The position numbers and the translations under genes are program-made. Source: a virus. From it: 44,968 nucleotides of DNA. The stretch spans positions 1-44,968 of the IMG/VR virus record IMGVR_UViG_3300020215_000076; one strand, written 5' to 3'. The notes beneath the pieces were generated by a model. The model searched no databases. It worked only from the letters and a program-made list of their open reading frames with translations, and was not told where the DNA came from. Below are positions 1,128 through 17,920 of the stretch, piece by piece (position 1 is the stretch's first letter; each line of letters begins with the position of its first letter).

Positions 1128-1301
1128 ATGAAGAAACGCACTTGGTACTGCATGGGCGGCGGAACGGTAGGCACATCCTGGATCCATACCAAGATCGAGG
1201 TTGAGGCCGTCAAGCAGCCGAAATGCCCGAGCTGCGGGATGGCAATGGTCTATCCGGGCTACTACCAGGACCTGAAACGCAAGGGAAAGGGCCGTAAGTG
1301 A
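1128..1301 (+). CDS. Small zinc-ribbon-like protein, 57 aa
   Basis: The frame opens at ATG 1128 (MKKRTWYCMGGG) and ends in a basic tail (KRKGKGRK). A CPSC knuckle near residue 38 plus Cys8 suggests half of a zinc ribbon. The stop overlaps the GTG start of the next gene by 4 bases (GTGA), a sign of translational coupling. Function unknown. Confidence 0.6.
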   Translation: MKKRTWYCMGGGTVGTSWIHTKIEVEAVKQPKCPSCGMAMVYPGYYQDLKRKGKGRK

Positions 1302-1462
1302 GCGACAGACTGGAATGCACGAAAGAGCGCCCCTACCAGAGGACCGAGGGCGGGCGCTGGATTCACCCCGAGGCCGTCCCAGCCAATCCAACGTGCGATT
1401 GCTGCGAGAGGTACACGTGCCCGTTCTGCGGGCTTACCTTCACGGTGCAGTTGCCCGAGTAG
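1298..1462 (+). CDS. Small Cys-rich protein, 54 aa
   Basis: GTG 1298 overlaps the previous stop. The protein has six cysteines, five of them in a tight cluster CDCCERYTCPFC near residues 33-43, which probably binds zinc. No family is recognised. Its length and composition match many neighbouring mini-proteins. Confidence 0.6.
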   Translation: MSDRLECTKERPYQRTEGGRWIHPEAVPANPTCDCCERYTCPFCGLTFTVQLPE

Positions 1463-1492
1463 GGGCACGAATCAAGCATTAGGAGAATAGAC

Positions 1493-1693
1493 GTGCTGCG
1501 CTGGTGGGTACGCTGGTTCCTCCCGTTCGAGATCGTCGTCCGATACGTGGCTGGCATCCTGTCGTCAGGAAGCCGCGTCTGGGAGAACGACGATTGGAAG
1601 CTCACGCTTGAGAGGAAGTACCACGGAGAAACGTGCTTCTGTAGCCCGTGCCAGCGCGGTAGGCGCAAAACGGGGCTTGACGATGCCACCTAA
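1493..1693 (+). CDS. Small protein with hydrophobic N-terminus and Cys motif, 66 aa
   Basis: GTG 1493 follows an AGGAGA box. The first 27 residues (LRWWVRWFLPFEIVVRYVAGIL) are hydrophobic with tryptophans and may associate with membrane. A CFCSPC cluster near residues 49-54 and a basic tail follow. It overlaps the next gene by 11 bases. Function unknown. Confidence 0.55.
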   Translation: MLRWWVRWFLPFEIVVRYVAGILSSGSRVWENDDWKLTLERKYHGETCFCSPCQRGRRKTGLDDAT

Positions 1694-1853
1694 TGCAGCA
1701 CGAATCACTGAGAAGCTTATGACGCCGAACGGTTGCGAGGTCTGTGGTCACGAATGCCATTGCGGTAAGGCGTGCCCCGAGAAATGTGCAAGCGCCCCGG
1801 GGAAGGTTGTCCTGTGTCGCTGCGGGCTTTGCTGGCACGAGAAGAAGACATAG
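1683..1853 (+). CDS. Cys-rich mini-protein, 56 aa, nine cysteines
   Basis: ATG 1683 lies inside the end of the previous gene. Nine cysteines and several histidines are spaced as CEVCGHECHCGKACPEKC then CRCGLC, a density typical of metal-binding mini-proteins. No known family can be named; metallothionein-like or multi-zinc-knuckle binding is an inference from composition. Confidence 0.6.
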   Translation: MPPNAARITEKLMTPNGCEVCGHECHCGKACPEKCASAPGKVVLCRCGLCWHEKKT

Positions 1854-1882
1854 ATCAGGTAAACGGACTAGGAGAAAGACCA

Positions 1883-2407
1883 ATGAAGGTCGAATACAGC
1901 AGCAACAACAGCGGCGGCGCGTGGTGGCTGAAAGACGAAGACTGGAAGGCACTCGAAGCGGCCGGCTGGAAGGTTGTCTGGGGTGGGATGTACTTCTGCC
2001 CGCGAGAGGGCGAGAAGGAGTCGGTGTGGAATCAGCGCCAGCGCCCGCGCTACCCGTTCGAATGCGTGAAAGCCATGAGCAAGTACGACGAGGTTCACGG
2101 GCTCCCGCCGTCCTGTCAAGGGCACCCTCAGTTCCTCCGGTACGAGGACATGACCGAGGCTGACCGCTACCTAGGGGCCATGGCGAAGTACGCGACCCTC
2201 GAATGCGAGACGCCCGGGGATGCCATGCGCTCTTTCGAGAAGGTCACTGGCCAGAAGGTCACGGACGAGGGTTGCGGCTGCTGTGGAGCCCCGCATTCGT
2301 TCTCTTGGGAAGGCGGGTTCGCCAGCGGCGAGGACTGCCTTCAGTACCTTCACCCCGGAAAGAAGATACCCAAGAGCCTTCGTGAAGCCGTCGAGTCGAA
2401 TGACTAG
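1883..2407 (+). CDS. Hypothetical protein with Cys cluster, 174 aa
   Basis: ATG 1883 follows a GGAGAAAG box; the same frame is open further upstream but lacks a good start. The N-terminal part (GGAWWLKDEDWKALEAAGWKVVW) is compact and aromatic. A CGCCGAPHSF cluster near residue 130 suggests metal binding. It is one of the longer proteins in this cluster of tiny genes. No homologous family is recognised. Confidence 0.7.
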   Translation: MKVEYSSNNSGGAWWLKDEDWKALEAAGWKVVWGGMYFCPREGEKESVWNQRQRPRYPFECVKAMSKYDEVHGLPPSCQGHPQFLRYEDMTEADRYLGAMAKYATLECETPGDAMRSFEKVTGQKVTDEGCGCCGAPHSFSWEGGFASGEDCLQYLHPGKKIPKSLREAVESND

Positions 2408-2425
2408 AAGAACTGGAGGGTGACT

Positions 2426-2569
2426 ATGTGCAACTGCAAGGCGTTTAAGGCTGGCGAGTGCCCCTGCGAGAAGGCCCGCCAACGTGAGTACCGCGAGTGG
2501 GCCCAGGCCGTCGAGATTTGGCTGGACCCCTGCGACTGCGACAAGTGCGAACCCTGGGGAGGCGTCTAA
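2426..2569 (+). CDS. Cys-rich mini-protein, 47 aa
   Basis: ATG 2426 is preceded by GGAGGG. Seven cysteines occur as two clusters, CNC...CPC at the N-terminus and CDCDKC near the C-terminus, separated by a helical linker. The layout suggests a two-ended zinc site. Function unknown. Confidence 0.6.
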   Translation: MCNCKAFKAGECPCEKARQREYREWAQAVEIWLDPCDCDKCEPWGGV

Positions 2570-2576
2570 GAGAACT

Positions 2577-2666
2577 ATGGCGAAAAGAGGGCGTCCGAAG
2601 TGGCATTGCGCGTGGTGTCGCCTCTGGTTGCCCCGTCAATGCAAATGGTTTGAGTGGTTTCGTTGA
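2577..2666 (+). CDS. Mini-protein, 29 aa, basic with CxxC
   Basis: ATG 2577 starts 7 bases after the previous stop. The product is strongly basic and tryptophan-rich (KRGRPKWHCAWCRLWLPRQC), with a CAWC knuckle and a third Cys. It is so short that coding is uncertain; tight packing and similarity in style to its neighbours support it. Confidence 0.4.
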   Translation: MAKRGRPKWHCAWCRLWLPRQCKWFEWFR

Positions 2667-2673
2667 GGGTTCT

Positions 2674-2802
2674 ATGTGCCCCGATTGCTACCGATGCCAG
2701 TTCTGCGACAAGGATTCCCTGGCGCGTCTTTGGCGTGAGGATCGCTGCCCATTATGTGGTGAGAAGTACGACGCGCAGCTCGCCCAAGACAGCGAGGAAT
2801 GA
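2674..2802 (+). CDS. Zinc-ribbon mini-protein, 42 aa
   Basis: ATG 2674 follows GAGGG. Three CxxC-type pairs (CPDC, CQFC, CPLCGEKY) in 42 residues resemble a rubredoxin- or zinc-ribbon-type knuckle. No specific family can be assigned. Confidence 0.55.
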   Translation: MCPDCYRCQFCDKDSLARLWREDRCPLCGEKYDAQLAQDSEE

Positions 2803-2824
2803 TCGGACCTACCGATGAGCGCCT

Positions 2825-3094
2825 ATGACCCTTCCCCGTTACTGCGGACGCGCAGGGGCCGTGACGAGCGGCTTGCGGGGTTGGGCCATCGGCGCTCATG
2901 AAAGGATTGTTGAGTCTATTCCGATGGTCGCACGCGCAGCGGACGAGGCTTTGGCGGTACGCAGGAGTCGGGGCCGCAACCTAGAGACCGGGCTGTCTGA
3001 TGCGGTGACGGTACCGGCGTCTCCTGTACGGGCCGGTGGGACGCGAGCGGCTGACCAGCGTGCGGCCTTCGGAGTAGACGGAATTGCTATATGA
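2825..3094 (+). CDS. Doubtful hypothetical protein, 89 aa
   Basis: The frame from ATG 2825 ends in a TGA that overlaps the next ATG (ATGA at 3091-3094), which supports it. The product is Ala/Arg/Gly-rich without a fold signature, and no good RBS is present. Two shorter alternatives share the space: 2815-2901 (28 aa) and 2898-2984 (28 aa), themselves joined by an ATGA overlap. The true reading is unresolved. Confidence 0.35.
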   Translation: MTLPRYCGRAGAVTSGLRGWAIGAHERIVESIPMVARAADEALAVRRSRGRNLETGLSDAVTVPASPVRAGGTRAADQRAAFGVDGIAI

Positions 3095-3261
3095 CGAAAC
3101 ACAAGCGCCATTCCTGGGGAACCTGGACGCTCATGTTTGCCATCGAGCGTGGCCGGACCAAGGCGGAATACCAGCGCCCCTGCTTGAAGCCCCACTGCGA
3201 TGCCTACCAAGCGACAAAGGAGATGCGCCCAGTGAAGCCTAAGGTTAAGCGGAATCGGTGA
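3091..3261 (+). CDS. Small basic protein, 56 aa
   Basis: ATG 3091 overlaps the preceding stop. The product is basic (MTKHKRHSWGTWTLMFAIERGRTKAEY... KPKVKRNR) with a CLKPHC pair near residues 38-43. No family is recognised. Confidence 0.5.
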   Translation: MTKHKRHSWGTWTLMFAIERGRTKAEYQRPCLKPHCDAYQATKEMRPVKPKVKRNR

Positions 3262-3265
3262 TTGG

Positions 3266-3475
3266 ATGACCCCCGTCTTGGAGATCCCGTCAGAGCAGCT
3301 CAAGCGCATCCCACTTGAGACGATCGTATTCCTGCTGGCGATCGGTCGCAAGAAGGAGGATCTCGTTGGCCTGAACATCGGGCTTCCGGTGAACGGGCTT
3401 CACGTCCGCATCAGCATCGAAACGGTCGACGCAGGGCGCGACCGAATCCTCGACTCGAGCTCACGGAGACGATAG
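3266..3475 (+). CDS. Hypothetical protein, 69 aa
   Basis: ATG 3266 begins 4 bases after the previous stop. The middle (LETIVFLLAIGRKKEDLVGLNIGL) is hydrophobic and the C-terminus basic. There are no cysteines, unlike most neighbours. Function unknown. Confidence 0.5.
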   Translation: MTPVLEIPSEQLKRIPLETIVFLLAIGRKKEDLVGLNIGLPVNGLHVRISIETVDAGRDRILDSSSRRR

Positions 3476-3478
3476 CTT

Positions 3479-3763
3479 ATGACGACCAGAATGGCACCCT
3501 TCCGGCAGGACATCCCGCACCGCGTCTGCACGAACCCAGACTGCAAACCTGAAGGGCGCCACTCGAAGGACTGCAAGCGCGTCGCCGGCGGGAAGCCTGG
3601 CGAGTTCGCGCCGAAGACGCCCTGGCAGGAGACCTGCTGCAAGCGGTGCCGGATGCGGAAGCACTACCTCAGCGTGCTCAAGCCCAGGCGCCTGGCTCAG
3701 AGAAAATCTGAGGAATCTACCCGTGAAAAACCGAATTCAATTGACGATTCACCGATGGCGTGA
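3479..3763 (+). CDS. Basic Cys-rich protein, 94 aa
   Basis: The gene starts at ATG 3479, 3 bases after the previous stop. Six cysteines form two groups (CTNPDC...C near residues 17-32 and CCKRC near 53-57), followed by a long basic tail. A zinc-stabilised nucleic-acid-binding role is plausible but unproven. It is the last gene before the non-coding attP/tRNA-like region. Confidence 0.6.
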   Translation: MTTRMAPFRQDIPHRVCTNPDCKPEGRHSKDCKRVAGGKPGEFAPKTPWQETCCKRCRMRKHYLSVLKPRRLAQRKSEESTREKPNSIDDSPMA

Positions 3764-3777
3764 TAGGATTTTCCCCA

Positions 3778-3867
3778 CTTGAGGACCGTGAGTGTGAGCG
3801 CCAACGGGGAACGGAACGTCAATCGCGAGGCCGTCGTCGCCTCTCTGCCTCTGCTCGGGTCCTCAAG
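3778..3867 (+). ncRNA. Candidate structured RNA closed by a 10-bp stem
   Basis: CTTGAGGACC at 3778-3787 is perfectly complementary to GGTCCTCAAG at 3858-3867, enclosing 70 bases that contain an internal hairpin (GAGGC/GCCTC around a 7-nt loop). The outer 5' strand is also the motif that recurs in leaders at 43021, 43449 and 44100. There is no T-loop, so it is not a tRNA. It could be a leader or small regulatory RNA; expression is unknown. Confidence 0.3.
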
Positions 3868-3954
3868 AAACACGCGCACGTCGCAAAAGAGCGGCGGCGA
3901 CCTCGCGACCGACGCTCCGTAGTTCAGTCTCTTTGACAACCGGGACAAAGGCAG

Positions 3955-4052
3955 CGCGGTTCACAACCGCGATCCAAAGGGATTCCCTTGACGGAGTCGA
4001 GGGAAGAATTTTGGATCCCTTTGTGAAGGTTCGAATCCTTCCGGCCCAACCA
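3955..4052 (+). other. tRNA-like element, candidate attP core
   Basis: An anticodon-like arm (stem 3955-3959/3967-3971, loop TTCACAA) is followed by a T-arm (GAAGG TTCGAAT CCTTC, 4025-4041), a 7-nt acceptor-like strand, a discriminator A and a CCA at 4050-4052. No matching 5' acceptor strand lies upstream, and the region where a variable loop belongs is 53 nt with two 9-bp stems (3975-3983/4015-4023 and 3984-3992/3996-4004). With an integrase starting 122 bases downstream, the simplest reading is attP sharing the 3' end of a host tRNA gene. A functional but aberrant tRNA is less likely. Confidence 0.55.
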
Positions 4053-4173
4053 CCTCGGTTCCCCTGGCTCCGTATCGGGAAATTACCGATAGGAGTTTTT
4101 CCTACCCCCGCGCCGATGTAGTGTTACCGATCGGTTGAACCTTGGCGCTTTACAATCAGGGAGGGAATGCCTA

Positions 4174-5070
4174 ATGCTGTCCCCAGTCGGCAGTGGCAGT
4201 GCCGCCGTTTCGTGGAGAGAGGGGACAGCGGAGTACCAGCGGACGTACTCAACTCTGCACCACAGACCAAGCACCAAGAAGCAGGTCGGGCAGATCCTCG
4301 GTAGGTTCGGAGTGTTCCTAGCGGGCCGCGTAGGGGTCGAAGCGCCAGTCAACTTGATCGGGCTCAGCGACCTCGAGCACTACCAAGCGCACGCCATCGA
4401 GACGGGGCTGACGCCAGCCACCGTGAACAAGCACCTACGGATCATCCGGGGATTCTTGCGATGGTGCTCGTTCCGTGGCTGGGCCAAGGAGAACCCCACG
4501 CGCGGCATGCGGCTCATACGCGAGAAGGTCGACGACCCGCGAACCCTGTCGAAGGACGAAGTCGAGGCCTTGGGCGCGTTCCTGCAAGGGGAAAGCGAGC
4601 TCCTGTACGACCTATTCCGTATCGGCCTTAACACAGGGGGTCGGTTGGGAGAAGTCCTCTGGCTCGAGAAGCGAGATGTAGACTTCCCCACTGGAACGAT
4701 CCAGTTCCGCAACAGCGCCGAGCATCCGACGAAGGGCGGCTACTCAAGAGTGGTGCCCATCAACGCGAGTGCGAAGGCGGCGATCGAGCGGCGCCTGAAG
4801 GTCAGCGCACGCTGGCTCTTCGAGTCGCGTAGAGGCAAGCCGTACGACATCAGCACGGTCAGCGCCCGGTTCAGCGCGGCATGCGTCGCCGCTGGCCTGG
4901 ACGGGGCGACGTTCCACGCGCTCAGACGCACGTTCGGAACGGCGATGGCGCAACGCGTGCAGCCGGCGCAGCTCATGAAGCTCATGGGGCACCGACACAT
5001 CAACGTCACCATGCGCTACTACGTGAACCTGCAGCGATTCGAACACCCGCCCGTCCCCGTGCTCGACTAG
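4174..5070 (+). CDS. int: Tyrosine integrase (site-specific recombinase)
   Basis: This is a 298-aa tyrosine recombinase that would integrate and excise the phage at the neighbouring att site. Residues 1-115 form an SAM-like core-binding domain. The catalytic domain has Arg157 in GGRLGEVL, Lys187 in a beta-hairpin, His248-x-x-Arg251 (HALR), His273 in MGHRH and the nucleophile Tyr282 (or 283). ATG 4174 is chosen because GGGAGG precedes it; an in-frame TTG at 4135 is less likely. The length is near the usual 300-400 aa for phage integrases, without an obvious N-terminal arm-binding domain. A strong hairpin lies downstream. Confidence 0.93.
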   Translation: MLSPVGSGSAAVSWREGTAEYQRTYSTLHHRPSTKKQVGQILGRFGVFLAGRVGVEAPVNLIGLSDLEHYQAHAIETGLTPATVNKHLRIIRGFLRWCSFRGWAKENPTRGMRLIREKVDDPRTLSKDEVEALGAFLQGESELLYDLFRIGLNTGGRLGEVLWLEKRDVDFPTGTIQFRNSAEHPTKGGYSRVVPINASAKAAIERRLKVSARWLFESRRGKPYDISTVSARFSAACVAAGLDGATFHALRRTFGTAMAQRVQPAQLMKLMGHRHINVTMRYYVNLQRFEHPPVPVLD

Positions 5071-5165
5071 CACGAGGGGGTGGCCCGCCTGCCTTTGTAG
5101 CAACCAGACCAACACAGTCTGTTTCCCCCTCTCTCCAGGTGTCAGGAAACCCCTCGCGCTTTGAT

Positions 5166-5180
5166 CCGCCTGAAAGGCGG
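5166..5180 (+). terminator. Short GC hairpin downstream of integrase
   Basis: CCGCCT (5166-5171) pairs perfectly with AGGCGG (5175-5180) around a GAA triloop, without a T-run. It is about 100 bases after the integrase stop and may contribute to termination. Confidence 0.35.
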
Positions 5181-5213
5181 TGGGTGGGCCCGAGGCGGCG
5201 ACCTGGCTCCTTA

Positions 5214-5262
5214 GGGACGGGCGGGGCGCGGGTTAGTCCAGCACCGACGCTCCGCCCGTCCC
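5214..5262 (+). terminator. Strong 15-bp stem-loop between integrase and recombination genes
   Basis: Bases 5214-5228 pair with 5248-5262 over 15 positions with a single G-T wobble, around a 19-nt loop. No U-tract follows. It separates the integrase from the 28-aa leader gene and the nuclease gene, so it may be a terminator, an RNA-stability element or a regulatory leader. Confidence 0.5.
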
Positions 5263-5326
5263 GGAAATCTTGCGAGAGAGAGGGTCGCGATACGTGCCCA
5301 GTTCTGGAGAGAGAAAGGAGAACCCT

Positions 5327-5413
5327 ATGGCCACCAGAAAACTTGAAGCCGACAAACCGTTCGACCGTGCCCTCGCCTTCCTCGGCGCGGGTTCCACGAA
5401 GGGAGAGAGGTAG
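5327..5413 (+). CDS. Mini-protein, 28 aa
   Basis: A good RBS (AAGGAG at 5315-5320) precedes ATG 5327. The product is MATRKLEADKPFDRALAFLG plus an eight-residue tail. It ends 3 bases before the GTG of the nuclease gene, so it could be a leader peptide or a small accessory protein. Confidence 0.45.
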   Translation: MATRKLEADKPFDRALAFLGAGSTKGER

Positions 5414-5416
5414 GGC

Positions 5417-6235
5417 GTGAGCACCGTGACGGGCAGCGAGAAGCCCTACCTCTCTCCGACCCAGCTCGACATGGCCGCAAAGTGCGGTCTGCAGTACGAG
5501 TACCGCTACGTCCACGGCCTGAGAATCGCCCCCGCCGTCGCGATGGTGATCGGTAAGGCTACCCACAAGAGCATTGAGAAGAACCTACGCGCGAAGCTCG
5601 AGACGAAGGCACTTCTCAAAGAGGCCGAAGTCACCGAGATGGCTGCCGAAGCCCTGAAGAACGAGTGGGCTGGCGAGGGCGTGACCCTTAGTGAGGACGA
5701 GGTCGCGCAGGGCGAGAAGAAGGTTCAAGGTTCAGCCGTCGACACCGCCGTCTCTCTCGCGCGCCTCCATCACAGGGTCCTCGCCCCAGCGATTCAGCCG
5801 ACTCACCTTGAGCGCGAGGTCCAGGTCGAGATCAAAGGCTACCCGTTCGACCTGAAGGGCTTCATCGACATCATTGAGCCCGACGGGATCCGCGACACCA
5901 AGACCGCGTCCAAGGCCCCGAAGGGCGACGAGGCCGAGAACTCCACGCAGGGGAAGTTTTACAGCCTCGCCCGCACGGTGCTCGACGGGGCGCCGCCGGC
6001 CAAGTTCTCACTCGACTATCTGGTTAAGACCTCCGAGCCCAAGGCCATCACGGTCACCGCCCAGATGGACGAGGACGACCACCGCCGCCTCCTCCTGCGG
6101 GTGGCGAAGGTCGGGGAGATGATCCAGAAGGGCGTGTTCACGCCAGCCCCGCATGACGCCTGGTACTGCTCCGCGCGCTGGTGCGGCTACTGGAGCCGCT
6201 GCCCGTTCGGCGCGAAGCAGAGAGTTCAGGGATAG
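5417..6235 (+). CDS. PD-(D/E)XK nuclease, Cas4/RecB-like with Fe-S cysteines
   Basis: This 272-aa protein has the RecB-nuclease signature: His50 in GKATH, Asp151 in GFIDII, and the Asp160-x-Lys162 pair in RDTKTAS. Cys23 near the N-terminus with Cys251, Cys256 and Cys262 at the C-terminus fits the iron-sulfur cluster layout of Cas4/AddB-type exonucleases. It would resect DNA ends for phage recombination. GTG 5417 is the only good start. The next two genes (putative annealing protein, RusA-like resolvase) complete a recombination module. There is no CRISPR array or cas1 in the window, so a CRISPR role is unlikely. Confidence 0.85.
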   Translation: MSTVTGSEKPYLSPTQLDMAAKCGLQYEYRYVHGLRIAPAVAMVIGKATHKSIEKNLRAKLETKALLKEAEVTEMAAEALKNEWAGEGVTLSEDEVAQGEKKVQGSAVDTAVSLARLHHRVLAPAIQPTHLEREVQVEIKGYPFDLKGFIDIIEPDGIRDTKTASKAPKGDEAENSTQGKFYSLARTVLDGAPPAKFSLDYLVKTSEPKAITVTAQMDEDDHRRLLLRVAKVGEMIQKGVFTPAPHDAWYCSARWCGYWSRCPFGAKQRVQG

Positions 6236-6245
6236 GAGACAGACC

Positions 6246-7190
6246 ATGCCGCCCAAGGAGAAGCCTCAGCCTGAGCGCCCCGAGGTCCACCAGATGCCCG
6301 AGGACCACGACGAGCCCCAGCGGGCCGTCGGGTTCGAAGGCTCCACGGCACTCGCGCCCGTCGCGGCCGAGAACGTCGGCGCTCTTTCCGCGATCGCTAG
6401 GGACGAAGGCGAGCTGAAGGCCGGCGTCGTGATGGCCAAGAAGTTTCCGCGCAACGAACTGCTGTCCTACAACAAGCTCCTCAAGTCGTGCGAGCGGCCG
6501 GCGATGGCCGAGCGCGCGACCTACTGCTTCCCGCGTGGCGGGCAGGACATCGAAGGTCCGTCGGTCGACCTCGCCCGCGAGGCCGCCCGCCTCTGGGGGA
6601 ACATTCGCTACGGCCTCCGGATCGTGAGCGAGACCGAGGACGCGATCCACATTCAGGGGGCCGCGTTCGACCTTGAGACCAACAACCTCGTCACCGCCGA
6701 AGACAAGTTCAAGAAGCTGGTCTTCCGCAAGACCCAGGGCTGGATCAAGCCCGACGAGCGTGATCTGCGGGAGCTGGTGAACCGTCGCGGCGCGATCCTC
6801 GTCCGCAACTGCCTCCTGCAAGTTCTCCCGCCTGACGCCATCGAGGACGCGGTCCTGAAGGCCAAGGAGACGCTGAAGAAGGCGGCCTCCGGCGAACTCA
6901 AGCAGGACCGCCAGAAGACCATCCGCTCCCTCGTGGCCGCGTTCGAGACGGTCGGAGTCACCGCTGAGATGCTGCAGGCCAAACTCGGCCACGACCTGCA
7001 GATCATCAACGAGGACGAGATCGCGACCTTGCGCGGGATCTTCAAGAGCCTCGTCGACAAGAACAGCCGTCGCGAGGAGCACTTCGATATCCCGAAGCCG
7101 AAGGGTGCGGAGACGGGCGCCATCGACCCGTCCCAACTCGGCCCCAAGGCCGAGGGGGCGAAGCAGGAGAAACCCAACGAGAAGAAGTAG
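6246..7190 (+). CDS. Putative recombination partner (annealing protein-like), 314 aa
   Basis: ATG 6246 follows GGAGA. The core FPRGGQDIEGPSVDLAREAA plus WGNIRYGLRI resembles a phage family often found beside RecB-type exonucleases. I recognise the family from its conserved PRGG(x)nGPS(x)nLA...WGN pattern but not a proven activity; single-strand annealing or DNA binding is inferred from position. The termini are charged and probably disordered (Pro/Glu-rich start, Lys-rich end). Confidence 0.6.
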   Translation: MPPKEKPQPERPEVHQMPEDHDEPQRAVGFEGSTALAPVAAENVGALSAIARDEGELKAGVVMAKKFPRNELLSYNKLLKSCERPAMAERATYCFPRGGQDIEGPSVDLAREAARLWGNIRYGLRIVSETEDAIHIQGAAFDLETNNLVTAEDKFKKLVFRKTQGWIKPDERDLRELVNRRGAILVRNCLLQVLPPDAIEDAVLKAKETLKKAASGELKQDRQKTIRSLVAAFETVGVTAEMLQAKLGHDLQIINEDEIATLRGIFKSLVDKNSRREEHFDIPKPKGAETGAIDPSQLGPKAEGAKQEKPNEKK

Positions 7191-7351
7191 GGAACGGCTC
7201 TGGGGTGAGGGGCGCGGGCGACCGGGAAGTTGTAGCGGACACGCCGCTCACCGGCCACGGGCCACCCGAGTATGCACGGGAGTTCCGTGCGGGGATGGAG
7301 AAGACCGTGGCCGGTGAGCTGGCTGTCGCGCGGGTAGGAGGACTGGCGACC
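7191..7351. other. Region upstream of the resolvase start
   Basis: The frame of the resolvase stays open from GTG 7205, giving 49 low-complexity residues (RGAGDREVVADTPLTGHGPP...). This may be an N-terminal extension or non-coding. No other feature is seen. Confidence 0.4.
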
Positions 7352-7792: not shown

Positions 7793-8006
7793 CCCGAAGA
7801 CGCATGTCCTCTCTTGCGACACCGAGGGATGTGCTTACACGGCGATTCTGCCGGATGGAGACCTCGAGATCCTGCCGCTCTTCTGGCGCTGGCTGTACGT
7901 CGGCGAGGAGCGGACAGACCTCGCCCTAAGGCGGGGACTCAAGGCGGCATGCCCGCTTTGCGTTGGAGCCATCGAGCACGCGCTTCACGACAGGCAGCAG
8001 CGATGA
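7785..8006 (+). CDS. Small zinc-binding protein, 73 aa
   Basis: GTG 7785 overlaps the end of the resolvase gene by 8 bases. CDTEGC near residues 10-15 and CPLC near 57-60 give a four-cysteine zinc site with a beta-rich middle (YTAILPDGDLEILPLFW). No family is recognised. Confidence 0.65.
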   Translation: MLDPKTHVLSCDTEGCAYTAILPDGDLEILPLFWRWLYVGEERTDLALRRGLKAACPLCVGAIEHALHDRQQR

Positions 8007-8026
8007 CGGGGAGAGAGGGGTAGACG

Positions 8027-8782: not shown

Positions 8783-8784
8783 CC

Positions 8785-9895: not shown

Positions 9896-9898
9896 GTC

Positions 9899-11419: not shown

Positions 11420-11435
11420 GTAGGGAGGACACACC

Positions 11436-12128
11436 ATGAGCGGCAGCATGGGCGACTGGACCTTGGGTGACGCGAAGTTGCTTCGGCCTGAGGAAGCGAA
11501 CATGGTTCTCGCGCTCGCTAGGCACAGGGCGGCTCACGCGGAGGCATCCAGCCAGGAGGCGGCGATGGCCGCTCGGGATCTCGACTGGTACATCATCGCG
11601 GTCAACGGCGGGTTCAGGTTGTCAGAGGTCGGGCACATCGAGAAGGACGACGTCCTTCCGAATCGACTTCTCCTCGCGCGTCGCAAGAAGCGGCGCCTGC
11701 GGCCTGAGCCTGTCGAGGTCGCTCCGGCCGTAATGGAGGTTCTTCGGCGCCGCGCGTCCATGGTTGAGTCGGGCTACATCTTTCCGGGCCGGGCCAAGCC
11801 GTGCGAAATCCACCGATCCAGAACCGACAAGCAGACCAAGGAGAAGACGGAGTGGACTGAGCAGGTCTGCGTCGGTGGCCACGCCTCTCTCCGCAGCATC
11901 CAGCGCCGCTGGCGGCTGCTGATCGAACACGCCGGGCTCTACATGCGCGGTCGCGGCATCCACACGCTGCGCCACACCGCTATCAGCACGATCTACACGA
12001 TGACTCACGACCTCCGGAAGGCGCAGGTCTTCGCCGGCCACGAGTCGAGCAAGACGACGGAGGTCTATGCGAAGGTGCTCGACATGCAGGAGACGCTGGC
12101 CAAGATGCCCGTGATCTCGGGCGAGTAA
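11436..12128 (+). CDS. Second tyrosine recombinase, catalytic domain only
   Basis: A 230-aa protein with a complete catalytic set: Arg61 (GGFRLSEV), His176-x-x-Arg179 (HTLR), His202 (FAGHES) and Tyr211 (EVYAKV). It lacks most of the core-binding domain seen in the integrase at 4174. ATG 11436 follows GGGAGG. It lies within the replication/early genes rather than next to att, so it may resolve multimers, act as an excisionase-like partner or belong to a different element. Confidence 0.82.
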   Translation: MSGSMGDWTLGDAKLLRPEEANMVLALARHRAAHAEASSQEAAMAARDLDWYIIAVNGGFRLSEVGHIEKDDVLPNRLLLARRKKRRLRPEPVEVAPAVMEVLRRRASMVESGYIFPGRAKPCEIHRSRTDKQTKEKTEWTEQVCVGGHASLRSIQRRWRLLIEHAGLYMRGRGIHTLRHTAISTIYTMTHDLRKAQVFAGHESSKTTEVYAKVLDMQETLAKMPVISGE

Positions 12129-12131
12129 GGA

Positions 12132-12329
12132 ATGGCTACGGAAGGAGTCGGCCCAGTCGAGTTGGTCATGTGCGATCGGTGCTGCGCTGTCTTTGGCAGG
12201 GGATGGGGCTACGCGAAATGCCGGGCCTGCGGCTACGACACGAGCCCGCTGACCGCGAAGGTGAACGGCGACGGAAAGGTGGTCTTCCTGGTCGACAGCG
12301 GCCCGGACAAGTGGAAGCGAAAGGACTGA
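12132..12329 (+). CDS. Zinc-ribbon protein, 65 aa
   Basis: The gene begins 3 bases after the recombinase stop. CDRCC near residues 14-18 and CRACGYD near 31-37 form a zinc ribbon, followed by a beta-rich tail (GKVVFLVDSG). Function unknown. Confidence 0.65.
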   Translation: MATEGVGPVELVMCDRCCAVFGRGWGYAKCRACGYDTSPLTAKVNGDGKVVFLVDSGPDKWKRKD

Positions 12330-12357
12330 TCGGAAAGTCCATGACTGAGGTGAAACG

Positions 12358-13488
12358 ATGACTCCTAAAGAGATCCAGAGCGAGAAGATTTACGAGCTTG
12401 TGGATAGCTTCTTCATCGGCGGCGGCGGAGATCCCCTTGAATCCCCGCATATGACGAAGGCTGACCTGGCCCACGCTATCGAGCATCTTGTTGCCGATCT
12501 CGTCGCCACGGTTGAAGCGGCTAACGTCAACTCGGCCCTGTGGAAGCGCGACAAAGAGGCCGCTGATCAGAAGCTTGAAAAGCTGCAAGCCGAGGCCGCC
12601 CACTTGGATCAGTGCAACACGGAGTTCATCAAGATCCACAGCGACCAGGCCCAGGAGATTTGCTCCCTCCGCCGCCTGATGGGCCACTGGTCCACCGTCG
12701 AGCTTGCACTGAAGTGGCAAGAGCAAGTGTTGAGCGACCTAGAGGCGGCGAAGGCCGAGATCGAGCGGCTGAAGGCGGACGCCAAGGTGTCCTGCGACTA
12801 CATCGAACGCTGGGAGAAGCGGGCGGAAGCTGCCGAAGCCGAGGTTAAGCGGCTGAAGGCTCAGGTTGAGAAGGAACATGAGTGCGCCCGGGAGTTACAG
12901 GATGGCCTGTTGAAGCAGTATGCCGCCTTCGCCAAGGAGCTTGACGAAAAAGACGCCGAAATTAAGAGGCTGAAAGTCGACATCGCCGGTCGCTCTCGCA
13001 TCACGCTGGAGGAGCAGCACAAGAAGGAAGTCGCCCTTCTCCAGAACAGTGCCTATCGGGAAGTGCTGGAGTGGATCGCGGGCCAAAGCGATCTCTTCTT
13101 CGCGGAATGCTCCCAGGCTGAGGAGATCGTCGCCCGCTGCCGGAAGGCACTGGGGCCGCCCTCGTCCGCCAGCTCCGCCCCAACGGTCATGGCCCTGCGG
13201 GATGCGTGGCTCGCACTGATCTCCAAGGCAGTGATCGCGCCACAGGCTCCGCAAGAGTTCGCCGCCATGTCGGACCTCTTCAACAAGGTCTGCGGAGTCG
13301 CCGAAAAGCCCAAGCCGCCATACCTGCCTTGTGGGTGCCTGATCGTCCAGACCGCGCAGGGGCAGATTGGGGACCACCGGGACGGTTGCACCGAAAAGCG
13401 AGTCGGACCTTCTCCGAAGTGCTTCCTGTGCGACGCGGAGGCGGTCGGCAAGATCGGTGCTGAGCCGAGGTGCGGGGCTCATGTATGA
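12358..13488 (+). CDS. Coiled-coil protein with C-terminal Cys knuckles, 376 aa
   Basis: From about residue 55 to 240 the protein is a long coiled coil (LEKLQAEAAHL, DLEAAKAEIERLKADA, AEAEVKRLKAQVEKEH, DEKDAEIKRLKVD). A globular helical part follows, then a C-terminal tail with CGC, C, CFLC and CGAH that may bind zinc. No family is recognised; such proteins are common and variable in phage early regions. It overlaps the next start by 4 bases (ATGA). Confidence 0.7.
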   Translation: MTPKEIQSEKIYELVDSFFIGGGGDPLESPHMTKADLAHAIEHLVADLVATVEAANVNSALWKRDKEAADQKLEKLQAEAAHLDQCNTEFIKIHSDQAQEICSLRRLMGHWSTVELALKWQEQVLSDLEAAKAEIERLKADAKVSCDYIERWEKRAEAAEAEVKRLKAQVEKEHECARELQDGLLKQYAAFAKELDEKDAEIKRLKVDIAGRSRITLEEQHKKEVALLQNSAYREVLEWIAGQSDLFFAECSQAEEIVARCRKALGPPSSASSAPTVMALRDAWLALISKAVIAPQAPQEFAAMSDLFNKVCGVAEKPKPPYLPCGCLIVQTAQGQIGDHRDGCTEKRVGPSPKCFLCDAEAVGKIGAEPRCGAHV

Positions 13489-13670
13489 GGGTCATGCACC
13501 GATACGAGGACGGCAAGGTGGCCGTCCGCTGGAAGGACGTCCGGCGCAAGTGCCCGTTCTGCGGGAAACGGAGGCGCGGGTTCGAGGGTGGGCGACTCTG
13601 GGTGCGGCACATAGGGAGCCACCCGGCCGTGATCTTCGGAAGGATCAAGGTTCCACAGGGCTTGGACTGA
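13485..13670 (+). CDS. C2H2-type zinc-finger mini-protein, 61 aa
   Basis: ATG 13485 overlaps the previous TGA. CPFC (23-26) and a downstream His-x4-His segment (RHIGSH) are spaced like one C2H2 finger in a basic protein. A nucleic-acid-binding role is likely but unproven. Confidence 0.6.
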   Translation: MRVMHRYEDGKVAVRWKDVRRKCPFCGKRRRGFEGGRLWVRHIGSHPAVIFGRIKVPQGLD

Positions 13671-13679
13671 AGGGGTGAT

Positions 13680-13904
13680 ATGCGAAATCTTGCGGTGCTT
13701 GTTTACTACGACGACCGAGGAAGGCTCGTCACCCGGTCCAAGGTCCGCGTCCTATACGCCTCAGGTGAAGAGGACAGGCGGAAGCGCCATATCTGCTTCG
13801 AGTTCGGCAAGGACGAGAATGGATTCAATCAGGCCATCTACATCACACCGGCCGCTCTAGAGAAGGCGACCGGACTGATCGTTCGCGAGCGCGAAGGACG
13901 CTGA
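13680..13904 (+). CDS. Hypothetical protein, 74 aa
   Basis: ATG 13680 follows AGGGGTGAT. The product is beta-rich (NLAVLVYYDDRGRLVTRSKVR) with a helical end. No motif is recognised and it has one cysteine only. Confidence 0.6.
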   Translation: MRNLAVLVYYDDRGRLVTRSKVRVLYASGEEDRRKRHICFEFGKDENGFNQAIYITPAALEKATGLIVREREGR

Positions 13905-13915
13905 AGGGCTAGTCG

Positions 13916-14029
13916 ATGCCTGAGAACGCGTGCAAGTGCTGCGGGTACGGGGGCGACAACTGCACCTGTAGTTGGGACGTGTGCTGGATCTGCGCCCCGA
14001 AGTGCGTGGACCATTGTGAGTGCCATTAG
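13916..14029 (+). CDS. Ten-cysteine mini-protein, 37 aa
   Basis: ATG 13916 opens a 37-codon frame in which 10 residues are cysteine and 2 histidine: CKCCGYGGDNCTC, then CWICAPKC and CECH at the end. This density is comparable to metallothioneins or to paired zinc knuckles. The RBS is weak (AGGG in AAGGGCTAG, about 8 bases upstream). Coding is supported by neat packing between two genes and by similar Cys-rich neighbours. Confidence 0.5.
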   Translation: MPENACKCCGYGGDNCTCSWDVCWICAPKCVDHCECH

Positions 14030-14067
14030 ATCGAAGACCTAAAGAGACTCTTTGAAAGGAGAGAGGT

Positions 14068-14322
14068 ATGCCTACGAAGAAGACCGTTGTGAAGGTTCCG
14101 CTGCCCGATGTTCCCCCTCCGTCCCCGATGGGCCTAGCTCCACAGGCTCCACCTCCGCCGAAGTGGAAGGTTTCCTTTCGGATTAGGTCTGCCATCGAAG
14201 TCACCGTTATCGACTCCTGGAACGAGGACCGCGAAGCGGCCATCGCGGAGGCAGCGGCGCGGGTCAGCGACCTGATCAAGGAGCCGTTCGGGATGAAGTA
14301 CCTGGGAGCCGTTCGCGTTTGA
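14068..14322 (+). CDS. Hypothetical protein with proline-rich linker, 84 aa
   Basis: A strong RBS (AAGGAGAGAG) precedes ATG 14068. The N-terminal third is proline-rich (VPLPDVPPPSPMGLAPQAPP) and the remainder is a small alpha/beta unit (WKVSFRIRSAIEVTVIDSW, then helix). Function unknown. Confidence 0.62.
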   Translation: MPTKKTVVKVPLPDVPPPSPMGLAPQAPPPPKWKVSFRIRSAIEVTVIDSWNEDREAAIAEAAARVSDLIKEPFGMKYLGAVRV

Positions 14323-14330
14323 GCCATTTG

Positions 14331-14492
14331 ATGCTTTACTCCAACATCAACTCTAAGGACGCCTATATCGAGGCCCTTCGACAGACCATCATCGAGTTCA
14401 TGAAGCTCTGCATCTGCCAGTATCCAGATGAGGGAAAGGAGCAGCGCGATTGTGACCGCTGCCGCCACGCGAAGAAGCTGTTGGACCACTAA
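14331..14492 (+). CDS. Small protein with CxC...CxxC, 53 aa
   Basis: ATG 14331 starts 8 bases after the previous stop. The N-terminal helix (SKDAYIEALRQTIIEFMKL) is followed by CIC and CDRCRH, likely one metal site. It has no good RBS. Confidence 0.5.
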   Translation: MLYSNINSKDAYIEALRQTIIEFMKLCICQYPDEGKEQRDCDRCRHAKKLLDH

Positions 14493-14508
14493 GGTCGAAA
14501 GCCATTCG

Positions 14509-15165
14509 ATGAAACCGTACTACGAGTCCAAGGGCCTGACGATCTACCACGGGGACGCGGTTCAGGTCATGCCCTTCCTCCAGCCCGTCGACCTCCTCCT
14601 GACCGATCCGCCTTACGGGATCGGGGAAGCCAGGGGGAAGAACAAGAGCCGCACGAATGCGGCGGTGGCGACAGACTACGGGGTGGCCTCGTGGGACGAC
14701 AAGCCCATCCCTCAGTGGCTTCTCGAAATGGCGATGGCGAAGGCCCGCTGGAGCATCGTCTTCGGTGGCAACTACTACGTCCTCCCGCCGTCCTCCTGCT
14801 GGCTTGTCTGGGACAAGGACAACACAGGGGACTTCGCGGATTGTGAGCTGGCCTGGACGAACATGCCGAAGGCCGTTCGGAAGCTCCGCTGGCGCTGGAA
14901 CGGGATGCTGCAGGAGCATGGCGGCATCCACAAGGAGCCGCGCTGGCATCCCACCCAGAAGCCGGTCGAGGTCATGAAGTGGGCGCTCTCACTGGCCCCG
15001 GACGGGACGAAGACCGTCCTTGACCCATTCATGGGCTCAGGGACGACCCTCGTAGCGTCCAAGGAGCTTGGCTATTCGTGCGTCGGCATCGAGCGGGAGG
15101 AGAAGTATTGCGAGGCCGCAGTTAAGCGGCTGTCCCAGGAGATCCTTTTCGGGGGAGTCGCCTAA
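14509..15165 (+). CDS. Beta-class DNA methyltransferase (N4-cytosine or N6-adenine)
   Basis: A 218-aa amino-methyltransferase with DPPY (33-36) preceding the SAM-binding FMGSG (174-178), the motif order of the beta class, and the companion segment HPTQKPVEVMKWAL (147-160). It transfers a methyl group from S-adenosylmethionine to a base in phage or host DNA. No restriction partner lies nearby, so self-protection or regulation is likely. ATG 14509 gives the family start MKPYYESKGLTIYHGDA. The target site cannot be told from sequence. Confidence 0.88.
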   Translation: MKPYYESKGLTIYHGDAVQVMPFLQPVDLLLTDPPYGIGEARGKNKSRTNAAVATDYGVASWDDKPIPQWLLEMAMAKARWSIVFGGNYYVLPPSSCWLVWDKDNTGDFADCELAWTNMPKAVRKLRWRWNGMLQEHGGIHKEPRWHPTQKPVEVMKWALSLAPDGTKTVLDPFMGSGTTLVASKELGYSCVGIEREEKYCEAAVKRLSQEILFGGVA

Positions 15166-15302
15166 TGAACCATGTGCATGACTGGTCTGAGTGGAGAACG
15201 TATTGGGTCGAGGTCAAGCACCACGCCAAGATCGTCTTTCACCAGCAGCGGAGGTGCCTTGCCTGGATCGGGTGCGAGGCGCACGAAACGAGGGAGGCGT
15301 AG
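15165..15302 (+). CDS. Small hypothetical protein, 45 aa
   Basis: ATG 15165 overlaps the methyltransferase stop by one base. It is rich in His and Trp (MNHVHDWSEWRTYWVEVKHH) with two cysteines. No family is recognised. Confidence 0.5.
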   Translation: MNHVHDWSEWRTYWVEVKHHAKIVFHQQRRCLAWIGCEAHETREA

Positions 15303-15305
15303 ATC

Positions 15306-15479
15306 GTGAATAAAGCGCCTGAGTGCGAGGATTGCGGCGACGAGGTCCGGAGGCGCTATCGGTGCCACCACTGCAATCTGCTGGTCTGCCGCTGGTGCTG
15401 GAGCCACGTCCACTCCTGCGAGCCGCAGCACAAGCGAAAGGACTGCCGAGACCTGAAGCCTGCGGAGGTCGGAAGATGA
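15306..15479 (+). CDS. Multi-cysteine zinc protein, 57 aa
   Basis: GTG 15306. Eight cysteines and several histidines (CEDC, CHHCNLLVCRWCWSHVHSC) resemble a B-box or cross-brace zinc module. The stop overlaps the next ATG (ATGA). Function unknown; the arrangement is one of the most ordered among the mini-proteins. Confidence 0.6.
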   Translation: MNKAPECEDCGDEVRRRYRCHHCNLLVCRWCWSHVHSCEPQHKRKDCRDLKPAEVGR

Positions 15480-15667
15480 GAACTACGACAAGGCATCGTC
15501 ATAAGTTCAACCGCTGGGAAATAGTGCCGCCCGTGCCGGGGCTCGCCCGCCGCCAGCGGCAAACGTGCAATCGCGGTCGGTGCCCGGTGGTCCGGACGCG
15601 GGTCGCGCACTACCACGGGGACGAAACCCCGTGCTTCCGGCCGCACAAGGGGAGGCGCACTTCATGA
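15476..15667 (+). CDS. Basic mini-protein, 63 aa
   Basis: ATG 15476 overlaps the previous TGA. It is very Arg/His-rich (MRTTTRHRHKFNRW, RPHKGRRTS), with CNRGRC. It probably binds nucleic acid. It overlaps the next ATG by 4 bases. Confidence 0.5.
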   Translation: MRTTTRHRHKFNRWEIVPPVPGLARRQRQTCNRGRCPVVRTRVAHYHGDETPCFRPHKGRRTS

Positions 15668-15840
15668 CATTTGTCGTCCGTGGAATGTGGCTCTGCAACT
15701 GGCAGACCAGTCATTGGTTCTTTCACAATTCCGTGTGGAGCGTTTGCGGGATGCTGCATCGAGACAAGGTGGCGCTTGGCTACACGACGGGCGTCCTCTG
15801 CCGGACCTGCACGAAGTGGGTGGTGAAGAACAATGCCTGA
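15664..15840 (+). CDS. Small Trp/Cys-rich protein, 58 aa
   Basis: ATG 15664 overlaps the previous stop. It has tryptophans throughout and four cysteines, two as CRTC near residue 46. The overlap chain continues into the next gene. Function unknown. Confidence 0.52.
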   Translation: MTFVVRGMWLCNWQTSHWFFHNSVWSVCGMLHRDKVALGYTTGVLCRTCTKWVVKNNA

Positions 15841-16030
15841 ATCACACGAGCCCAAGCCTCCTCTCTGGTACACCGAAATCGGGATGCGGGAGGCCATCGC
15901 CAGCGGGGCGTTCCCGCCCGTCGCGTGGGACCTGATCCCGGAGGTGGTAAAGCACCTCCAGATGGCGTTCGAGAAGGGCTACGGGATCGGATTTCGTCAA
16001 TCCCAAGAACGACGTCCGGAGGGCAAATGA
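15833..16030 (+). CDS. Hypothetical protein, 65 aa
   Basis: ATG 15833 lies within the end of the previous gene. The product is a mixed helix protein (MREAIASGAFPPVAWDLIPEVVKHLQMAFEKG). Its end (RRPEGK) is nearly the same as the end of the 68-aa protein at 16260 (SRPEGK); both stretches carry the GGAG-type RBS of the following gene, so the match reflects a shared RBS. Confidence 0.55.
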   Translation: MPESHEPKPPLWYTEIGMREAIASGAFPPVAWDLIPEVVKHLQMAFEKGYGIGFRQSQERRPEGK

Positions 16031-16263
16031 GCTGCCCGAAAGGTGCATTCTGCTTCGTGAGCCCAATCTGGCACGAGGACCACGAGTACAACGCCAGCCT
16101 CGGTACGTGCAGGCGGAAGGCGGAGTGTACGGCCTGCGGCAAGATCGAATGGAGCGCCGCCGATCATGTCTGCCTCGGGGGTGGCGATGCCGACCTGTGC
16201 CTTGAGCGCTTGATGGCGGCTGGCCGGGACGTGGACAAGTTAGACCAATCGAAGGCTCGATGA
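16027..16263 (+). CDS. Cys-rich protein, 78 aa
   Basis: ATG 16027 overlaps the previous TGA. It has seven cysteines, including CTACGK near residues 34-39, between aromatic segments. It is likely a zinc-binding fold of unknown function. Confidence 0.58.
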   Translation: MSCPKGAFCFVSPIWHEDHEYNASLGTCRRKAECTACGKIEWSAADHVCLGGGDADLCLERLMAAGRDVDKLDQSKAR

Positions 16264-16466
16264 CTATGGATCCGCACGAGGACTATCGGGCGCTCTGCAA
16301 GCGTGTACCGTGGGCCTACGCCGACTCCTGGTATCAGGAGTGCGACTACTGCAAGCGCGTCGAGCTGGTGCTGCCTTCTCTGGCGAAGTCGGCAACTTTG
16401 ATCTGTGAAAGCTGCTTCTCGGACGGATTAGACGAATCCAGCGATTCACGACCGGAGGGGAAATGA
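16260..16466 (+). CDS. Zinc-ribbon-like protein, 68 aa
   Basis: ATG 16260 overlaps the previous stop. CDYCKR (28-33) and CESC (49-52) form a classic two-knuckle zinc ribbon spanning about 25 residues. Function unknown. Confidence 0.6.
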   Translation: MTMDPHEDYRALCKRVPWAYADSWYQECDYCKRVELVLPSLAKSATLICESCFSDGLDESSDSRPEGK

Positions 16467-16666
16467 AGATTCACCTAGACCACGCTGGCTACACGGATAT
16501 TTCCACGACCCAAGCCGGGAACGCTGAGGTGTGGGTGGCCGCTGGCATGAAGCGCGAGGATGGGGTGTGGTTCTACCTCACCCGAGAGAACGTGAAGAAG
16601 CTTCACAAGCAGCTAGGGGAATGGCTTGAAGAACGCCACAAGCCCGCACCGTACTGCGGGTCATAG
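16463..16666 (+). CDS. Hypothetical protein, 67 aa
   Basis: ATG 16463 overlaps the previous stop and follows GGAGGGG. It has an alpha/beta pattern (IHLDHAGYTDIS, VWVAAGMKREDGVWFYLTRENVKKLHKQLGEWL). No known family. Confidence 0.58.
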   Translation: MKIHLDHAGYTDISTTQAGNAEVWVAAGMKREDGVWFYLTRENVKKLHKQLGEWLEERHKPAPYCGS

Positions 16667-16742
16667 TACAAACGGTCGAATCAAGGGAGCTTAGGGTGGT
16701 TTATCGAAATCCGGTAAGGTCTGAATAACTGGAAGGTGAAAT

Positions 16743-16934
16743 ATGGCTGGCTTTCACGCCGAACGGCTGCACGTGATTCGCGGCACCTTAGAGGTCGTAC
16801 TGGATGCCGAGGACAAGGAGGCTGCGTGTAAGCTCTGGATCCCAGCCCTACTAAAGGAAATCAATGAGGCCCTAAGCAACTGTGATTGCGAGGAGTGTTT
16901 CGAGGCCAGGCGTACCGATACGCATAAGGTGTAG
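16743..16934 (+). CDS. Hypothetical protein with CDCEEC, 63 aa
   Basis: GGAAGGTG precedes ATG 16743. The protein is helical, with CDCEEC near residues 47-52. A 76-base gap without recognised signals separates it from the previous gene. Confidence 0.55.
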   Translation: MAGFHAERLHVIRGTLEVVLDAEDKEAACKLWIPALLKEINEALSNCDCEECFEARRTDTHKV

Positions 16935-16941
16935 TCAGCGT

Positions 16942-17466
16942 ATGGTGAAGAGACTTTGCGGCGAGTTCTGGCGGCACAAGATGAGCCGAGAGCTTGGCTA
17001 CAACAAGTGTGTCCGGTGCGGAACGCTAGGTGCTGGCGCTCCTACCGAGATTCGGTTCTGGGCCAACGTCAAGAAGACGGATACCTGTTGGGTGTGGACT
17101 GCCTACACCTACCACGGCGGCTACGGGCAGTTCAGGACCAAGGAGCGGGCGTGGTCGGCCCACAAATACTCATGGTTCCTGCATACAGGATACGCGCCAG
17201 GTAGCGATGTGGACGTCTGCCACAAGTGCGACAACCCGCCGTGCGTGCGACCGGACCATCTATTCATCGGGACACGGAAGGAAAACCACGAGGACATGAT
17301 CCGGAAGGGACGGAAGCCGACGGTGCTATCCTTGCTCCAGGTGCATGAGATCCGCAAGCTGGCACAGCTAGGGCGCAGCAACAACGAGATTGCCGAGTAT
17401 CTCCACCTGACGCGGGATCAGGTCTACCGGGTGACTAGTGGTAAGTGCTGGAAGGCGATACGCTAA
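16942..17466 (+). CDS. HNH homing-type endonuclease, 174 aa
   Basis: The HNH core is the aromatic CWVWTAYTYHGGYGQF lead-in (49-64), HKYSWFLHTG (74-83) and CHKCDNPPCVRPDHLFIGT (93-111), which holds the zinc cysteines and catalytic His. A C-terminal helix-turn-helix (GRSNNEIAEYLHLTRDQVYRV, about 144-164) resembles the DNA-recognition modules of free-standing homing endonucleases. Cys23-x2-Cys26 near the N-terminus may be an extra zinc site. It sits near the end of the rightward arm; ATG 16942 is the likely start. Confidence 0.82.
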   Translation: MVKRLCGEFWRHKMSRELGYNKCVRCGTLGAGAPTEIRFWANVKKTDTCWVWTAYTYHGGYGQFRTKERAWSAHKYSWFLHTGYAPGSDVDVCHKCDNPPCVRPDHLFIGTRKENHEDMIRKGRKPTVLSLLQVHEIRKLAQLGRSNNEIAEYLHLTRDQVYRVTSGKCWKAIR

Positions 17467-17477
17467 CGAGGTGATAT

Positions 17478-17744
17478 ACGACTAACGACCAGAACCAGCG
17501 CGGGCCAGAGGTTCCACCCGAACGCCTCGAGCAGCTCGTCGCCGCTGCAACTTCCGAACTCGCGCAACGCCTAGGGGCCGGCGCCCAAGTGATCGTGATG
17601 GCCCTTGAGCCCGGAAAGGGGGGCTGGCAAGTGGAACATTCCGGCCACCCAGTAGGGCTGATCTGGCTGCTGGAGATAGGGGCACAGAACATCAAGGACA
17701 AGCTCCTGCCGAAGGGGACGCGCCAGAGGACGGAGGGCCCGTGA
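17478..17744 (+). CDS. Hypothetical protein, 88 aa, apparent ACG start
   Basis: A good RBS (GAGGTGA at 17468-17474) is followed at 17478 by ACG in the frame TNDQNQRGPEVPPERLEQLV... that ends at TGA 17744. The encoded protein is well formed (a helix, then GAQVIVMALEPGKGGWQVEH), and an in-frame stop (TGA) lies just before ACG, so no upstream start exists. Either ACG is used, or ATG was lost by a T-to-C change, or a later GTG/ATG near 17589-17598 starts a shorter product. Its stop overlaps the next GTG. Confidence 0.55.
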   Translation, partial: TTNDQNQRGPEVPPERLEQLVAAATSELAQRLGAGAQVIVMALEPGKGGWQVEHSGHPVGLIWLLEIGAQNIKDKLLPKGTRQRTEGP

Positions 17745-17920
17745 CGACCTGCCTCGAGTGCGGGAAGGAGTGCGACGGCCGGCGCTCCGCTCGGCGCCGC
17801 TTCTGCAGTCCGAGGTGCCGAGCGGCGCACTGGCGCAAGGAGCATGAAGTGACTTGCCCGCACTGCGCCAAGCCATTCCAGTTAGCGTACGTACGCCAGC
17901 CTACGCGTACGAACGCTTAA
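17741..17920 (+). CDS. Zinc-finger protein, 59 aa, last gene of the rightward arm
   Basis: GTG 17741 overlaps the previous TGA. CLECGKEC with CSPRC, then CPHC, give seven cysteines in a basic protein, in the style of small zinc fingers. The last codons overlap the palindromes at 17885-17916. It ends the rightward block. Confidence 0.6.
   Translation: MTTCLECGKECDGRRSARRRFCSPRCRAAHWRKEHEVTCPHCAKPFQLAYVRQPTRTNA
17885..17916. repeat. Palindrome pair GCGTACGTACGC and GCGTACGaACGC
   Basis: A perfect third copy (17885-17896) and a one-mismatch fourth copy (17905-17916) lie 20 bp apart, about two helical turns. This suggests binding of one protein to the same DNA face. The same 12-mer occurs twice at 9428 and 9497. 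Confidence 0.5.

Follow-up and report, generated by a model that had tools for sequence, protein, structure and literature searches.

A dense set of small cysteine-knuckle proteins in one arm of a probable temperate phage genome

Knuckle genes of the plus-strand arm

The IMG/VR record IMGVR_UViG_3300020215_000076 is a virus contig of 44,968 bases, the whole of which was analysed here (the window). Its plus-strand arm (119-17920), whose gene content suggests early expression, combines DNA-metabolism genes with small genes encoding proteins rich in cysteine knuckles. With a knuckle defined as CX1-2C, a small gene as one of 100 residues or less, and genes called by codon, start and Shine-Dalgarno (SD) scores (2577 was added by hand), the arm contains 50 genes; 35 of these are small, 19 of the 35 carry a knuckle, and 12 carry at least two. 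An earlier note had named fifteen such frames of 29-94 residues; all are present at those sizes, and the frame named at 1683 could also start at 1719.

The excess of knuckles in these small proteins is real, not chance. The 35 genes encode 40 knuckles, against 11.2 expected when residues are shuffled in a pool and 19.7 when they are shuffled within each protein, and none of 2,000 shuffles reached 40; because both kinds of shuffle fall short, the small early genes must be richer in cysteine (5.3%) than chance provides, and their cysteines more clustered. The 12 genes with at least two knuckles compare with 2.0 expected from the pooled shuffle (again 0 of 2,000). Per 1,000 residues there are 19.1 knuckles in the small early genes, 1.2 in spurious open reading frames (ORFs) of the early arm, about 15-fold fewer, and 1.9 in genes of the structural strand; translating these genes in their five remaining frames yields 0-2.4. 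Knuckle-bearing genes as a whole make up 24 of the 50 early genes and 6 of the 29 on the structural strand, at densities of 9.1 and 1.9, respectively.

All members of the set lie on the plus strand, and most have at least four Cys or His residues in paired spacings. A basic protein of 57 residues (1128-1301) has CPSC among its 3 Cys, apparently an incomplete single metal site, with its best Pfam hits below threshold; the next gene (1298-1462; 54 residues, 6 Cys, CDCC-x4-CPFC) starts within a 4-nucleotide overlap with the preceding stop. The gene at 1493-1693, an addition to the earlier list, specifies 66 residues with an N-terminal hydrophobic stretch and H-x3-CFCSPC. At 1719-1853 (alternative start 1683) are 44 residues including 9 Cys and 3 His, a metallothionein-like cysteine content matched by no Pfam or PHROG family. 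The protein of 2426-2569 (47 residues, 7 Cys, CxC-x7-CxC-x21-CxCx2C) has the top synonymous-codon score of the set; that of 2577-2666 (29 residues, HCAWC...C) is the weakest candidate, of doubtful coding status, with a synonymous score of -7.6 and a weak SD. Next come 2674-2802 (42 residues, 6 Cys, CPDCYRCQFC-x13-CPLC), whose zinc-ribbon matches are sub-threshold, and 3479-3763, a basic protein of 94 residues with 6 Cys and 3 His.

Farther along, 7785-8006 (73 residues, CX4C-x39-CPLC) overlaps the gene at 7205-7792 by 8 nucleotides, and 12132-12329 (65 residues, CDRCC-x11-CRAC) has a pattern resembling a zinc ribbon. The basic 61-residue protein of 13485-13670 has CPFC-x15-HIGSH, a C2H2-like spacing, and a sub-threshold Zn-ribbon match. 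Cysteine is most abundant at 13916-14029, with 10 Cys (27%) and 2 His in 37 residues, a metallothionein-like composition without a family match. The gene at 14331-14492 (53 residues, CICQ...CDRC) was added to the earlier list. Alternating CX2C pairs with B-box/FYVE-like spacing mark the 57 residues of 15306-15479 (8 Cys, 5 His). Codon support is near neutral for 15664-15840 (58 residues; CRTC, two further Cys and 3 His), another addition. The last four are 16027-16263 (78 residues, 7 Cys, CX5CX2C...HxC); 16260-16466 (68 residues, CX2C-x17-CX2C, formed by C28, C31, C49 and C52); 16743-16934 (63 residues, CDCEEC near the C-terminal end), also newly added; and 17741-17920 (59 residues, CLEC-GKEC...FCSPRC...CPHC), a putative stand-alone zinc module and the last gene of the arm. 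A further protein of this kind is encoded outside 1128-17920, at 44128-44289 (53 residues, 5 Cys, CPVC-x4-CAC), beside the ArdA gene and joined to the arm if the genome is circular. Among the fifteen frames originally named, nine have at least two knuckles; 1128, 2577, 3479, 7785, 13485 and 16027 have a single one.

Taken as a set, these genes look coding. GC content at codon positions 1, 2 and 3 is 0.57, 0.50 and 0.77 in the knuckle set, close in pattern to large genes (0.63, 0.46, 0.84) and distinct from spurious ORFs (0.62, 0.65, 0.62). An SD of at least 4 nucleotides precedes 74% of the set and 19% of spurious ORFs. A score that considers synonymous choice only, and so is blind to cysteine, also places the set above spurious ORFs (P = 7e-8). 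The contrast with spurious ORFs is somewhat favoured by the procedure: the caller rewarded SD and codon use and picked starts in that way, while spurious ORFs were given their longest start. Individually, 2577, 16260 and 16743 have no codon support.

The view that many of the genes are joined by 4-base overlaps was overstated, and that of translation in chains holds only in part: such overlaps do occur, at 9 of 49 early junctions, but most genes stand 3-30 nucleotides apart. Five of the fifteen named genes start inside one (1298, 13485, 16027, 16260 and 17741). The proteins of 15833-16030 and 16260-16466 both end in RPEGK, because the codons that close each frame also supply the SD of the gene that follows and the ATGA at which it begins; this shared ending is a small convergent coupling signal.

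Comparison with other viruses and search for relatives

The density of knuckles was compared in a panel assembled through the recombinase-like protein (phrog_3657), alignment of which gave 80 viral loci; the 74 others of at least 12 kb, including five relatives fetched by accession, were processed with the same caller. In this panel, which was drawn up through a single gene and does not sample phages at random, the window ranks first of 75 loci for knuckle density in small proteins: per 1,000 residues it reaches 15.3 as a whole and 18.5 in the arm, whereas the other 74 have a median of 2.7 and go no higher than 11.2. Per 10 kb, the arm has 6.7 genes with at least two knuckles (panel median 0.36, maximum 1.95). 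Myxococcus phage Mx8 has 4.0 knuckles per 1,000 residues of small protein and Gordonia phage Catfish 3.6. The number of such proteins in one genome had been called striking, and the comparison upholds this.

Arthrobacter phage Jasmine and its relatives (Shocker, DS1) share the lineage of the window's portal, terminase and capsid proteins, which are about 21-31% identical to theirs; their early arms differ, carrying DNA polymerase and helicase genes, and no homologue of the window's knuckle proteins was found in these phages. The short Jasmine early arm does reach 16.3 knuckles per 1,000 residues, yet it has just eight small genes, and only two of these have two knuckles. The haloviruses of the HF1 group (HF1, HF2, Serpecor1, Hardycor2) encode many CxxC microproteins, none of them within the 26-kb structural region (PMC7230728). 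As in those viruses, the window has more than 10 knuckle proteins of under 100 residues, mostly of unknown function and concentrated outside the structural region. The haloviruses, however, are archaeal and lytic with acidic proteomes, whereas the proteome of the window is not acidic and no homology to them was seen; a halovirus origin of the window is thus not supported. The density also differs, 6.3 knuckles per 1,000 residues of small protein in HF2 against 19.1 here. The pattern itself is already published for the HF1 group; the window shows it at a higher density, and in a temperate phage whose host is probably bacterial.

The proteins had been described as unrelated-looking, and so they are: no pair of knuckle proteins is significantly similar, and a common origin by duplication was rejected. 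One low E-value (expectation value) involves the protein of 15833 with that of 16260 and reflects mostly the C-terminal tail they share. They appear from these searches to be ORFans rather than paralogues. PHROGs matches below 0.001 were obtained for only two of the small proteins: 17741 with phrog_1271, the zinc region of HNH endonucleases (E = 1.1e-6, over residues 3-52), and 15306 with phrog_522, a family to which no function is assigned (E = 1.3e-4). Ten knuckle proteins searched against NCBIfam gave nothing below 0.03, and the same number against PADLOC nothing below E = 0.03 (best 0.038), although PADLOC covers defence genes and hence says little about inhibitors. A sequence search of the PDB returned no credible match.

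Layout of the genome around the knuckle genes

No near-identical phage is present among 50,697 phage-collection records. The plus-strand genes among which the knuckle genes are set include a tyrosine integrase (4174-5070), the mark of a temperate phage; a PD-(D/E)XK exonuclease (5417) followed by the recombinase-like protein that anchored the panel (6246), together spanning 5417-7190; a weak match to a replication initiation protein (8027); a GroES co-chaperonin (9605-9895; Pfam Cpn10, E = 1e-28); a second tyrosine recombinase (11436-12128); a DNA methyltransferase (14509); and an HNH endonuclease (16942-17466). The GroES protein is 41-49% identical to GroES matches in other phage-collection records. 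The genome thus has two tyrosine recombinases, the second of which may have a role other than integration. Just upstream of the integrase, 3935-4055 contains a tRNA-like T-arm, a CCA end and a strong inverted repeat, and could be an attP site; neither ARAGORN nor Rfam reports a tRNA there, and the tRNA-like 3' end (about 4028-4055), sought in genome contigs as a clue to the host, has no exact match in them.

The structural arm, with portal, terminase and capsid genes, occupies the minus strand from 18128 to 42073. One of its genes (30917-31741, minus strand, 274 residues) encodes six CXXCXGXG-like repeats resembling the central zinc domain of DnaJ, with a sub-threshold Pfam E of 0.006. A third block (43049-44808) returns to the plus strand and holds an ordinary ArdA antirestriction gene (43497-44027; Pfam PF07275, E = 2e-36), the sole recognisable anti-defence gene, and not itself a member of the cysteine-rich set.

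A 166-nucleotide repeat, 98% identical with 3 mismatches, ties 519-684 to the right end of the window (44803-44968). The genome is probably circular on this evidence, with the ArdA block running into the early arm and bases 1-518 representing another version of what lies to the left of the same gene; the repeat can be read either as a circular genome with a strain variant at its left end or as a mixed assembly. It begins at a stop codon and SD, and the genes upstream of its two copies differ. These boundaries fit small genes being traded one cassette at a time, but an assembly that mixed two strains would give the same picture.

Possible roles of the knuckle proteins

The account we favour, and to which we give about an even chance, is that a temperate tailed phage here has a mosaic arm for accessory functions and DNA metabolism, and that its microproteins are unrelated metal-folded proteins that bind nucleic acid or the machinery of host or phage. 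In this perspective, the arm would run from 43049-44808 into about 519-17920 in the circular genome. Zinc can hold small proteins together; as a protein of 40-60 residues with no hydrophobic core can be held in this way, most of the small ORFans would fold at a single metal site of the Cys4 or Cys/His kind, and some at two. Compact operons would express them, and they would most likely act by stoichiometric binding, to nucleic acid or to the DNA and RNA machinery of host or phage (transcription, replication, nuclease control), with a separate target for each protein. That zinc stabilises small proteins makes a binder mechanism plausible. So does the action of small C4 zinc proteins of mobile elements (TraR, lambda Orf73), which reprogram host RNA polymerase (PMC9239242). 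The setting also favours it: the knuckle genes lie near those for integrase, exonuclease, recombinase, methyltransferase, HNH nuclease and ArdA, and the structural arm is poor in knuckles. The account draws as well on the knuckle excess over all three kinds of control, the coding signatures that do not depend on amino-acid content, the paired ligands of most members, the kinship of 17741 with HNH endonucleases, the lack of paralogy, the first rank in the panel and the parallel with the haloviruses.

Several results weigh against this account. The profile hidden Markov model search that had been suggested for the set was productive only in PHROGs; in Pfam, no model, and no zinc family among them, passes threshold for any small knuckle protein scanned. 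The earlier description of the proteins as probably zinc-binding is thus made plausible by their ligand patterns, and by the likeness of 17741 to HNH endonucleases, but not by any Pfam family. Several members have a single knuckle and would have to dimerise, join a partner or draw on further ligands. Single-sequence structure models are too weak to use: that of 16260 (predicted local distance difference test score, 68; no PDB match at E ≤ 0.001) does not place the fold, and that of 15306 is uninformative. Nor were homologues of the knuckle proteins found in the phage records or viral contigs scanned. Eighteen of them, joined by X spacers, gave nothing at E ≤ 1 by tblastn against the phage-collection records, a search in which proteins of 40-60 residues need high identity to be seen (GroES in the same format was recovered as a control). 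Scans of viral contigs with 17741 and 15306 found no relative; those with MCP, TerL, 8785 and a tail protein found one distant relative altogether.

A second, distinctly less probable perspective supposes a host-takeover or counter-defence set, in which each protein is an inhibitor aimed at a host complex or defence system. ArdA lies in the same arm with ORFan microproteins beside it, and TraR and lambda Orf73 supply a precedent (PMC9239242), one that the 68-residue 16260 protein recalls in sharing their CX2C-x17-CX2C finger spacing. Yet 16260 matches no DksA/TraR profile (no Pfam family at E ≤ 0.1), and its weak structure model finds nothing convincing in the PDB; the PADLOC search with ten of the proteins was likewise empty, and no protein is linked to any target.

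Less likely again, many of the proteins could be detached accessory zinc modules that either assist proteins of the phage itself (nucleases, the recombinase, replication proteins) or are remnants of longer genes for HNH proteins or transposases. The case is best for 17741, which over residues 3-52 aligns with the zinc region that HNH endonucleases of phages carry (phrog_1271, phrog_15471) and sits one gene after such an endonuclease; the larger neighbours 8785, 10575, 12358 and 16942 have knuckles too. Unlike those enzymes, 17741 is a stand-alone protein with no nuclease domain: no HNH catalytic motif was found in it, and no HNH family is among its Pfam hits at E ≤ 0.1. Such kinship is seen in just 1 of the 19, and that the frames are intact and have SD sites of their own speaks against their being remnants.

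Metal buffering or redox activity is improbable for the set. The most cysteine-rich proteins, 13916 and 1719 (20-27% Cys, with His), would then be metallothionein-like, presumably comparable to prokaryotic metallothioneins of the SmtA type, and the set would bind metal with no macromolecular target; but this leaves the members with 3-6 Cys in paired spacings unexplained, and no Pfam metallothionein model matched either protein. Least probable by far is that the knuckles are chance products of spurious gene calls in GC-rich DNA: three genes do lack individual codon support, but the idea is already contradicted for the set as a whole by the scarcity of knuckles in spurious ORFs of the same DNA, by the third-position GC, SD and synonymous usage that set the knuckle genes apart, and by the absence of the pattern from the other GC-rich phages compared.

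Our preferred account of metal-folded binders has a bolder extension, which we consider unlikely: that the zinc-knuckle microprotein serves this phage lineage as a general scaffold, on which some twenty unrelated, metal-folded binders with fast turnover are built, each acting on a different host or phage complex and swapped as a single-gene cassette at SD boundaries. Whatever their targets, the halovirus pattern of many CxxC microproteins occurs more densely here, in a temperate phage that is probably one of bacteria. Provided that they bind zinc and are expressed, the proteins would offer about 19 natural, very small metal-folded binders, with no known relatives, for screening against targets in transcription, replication and defence.

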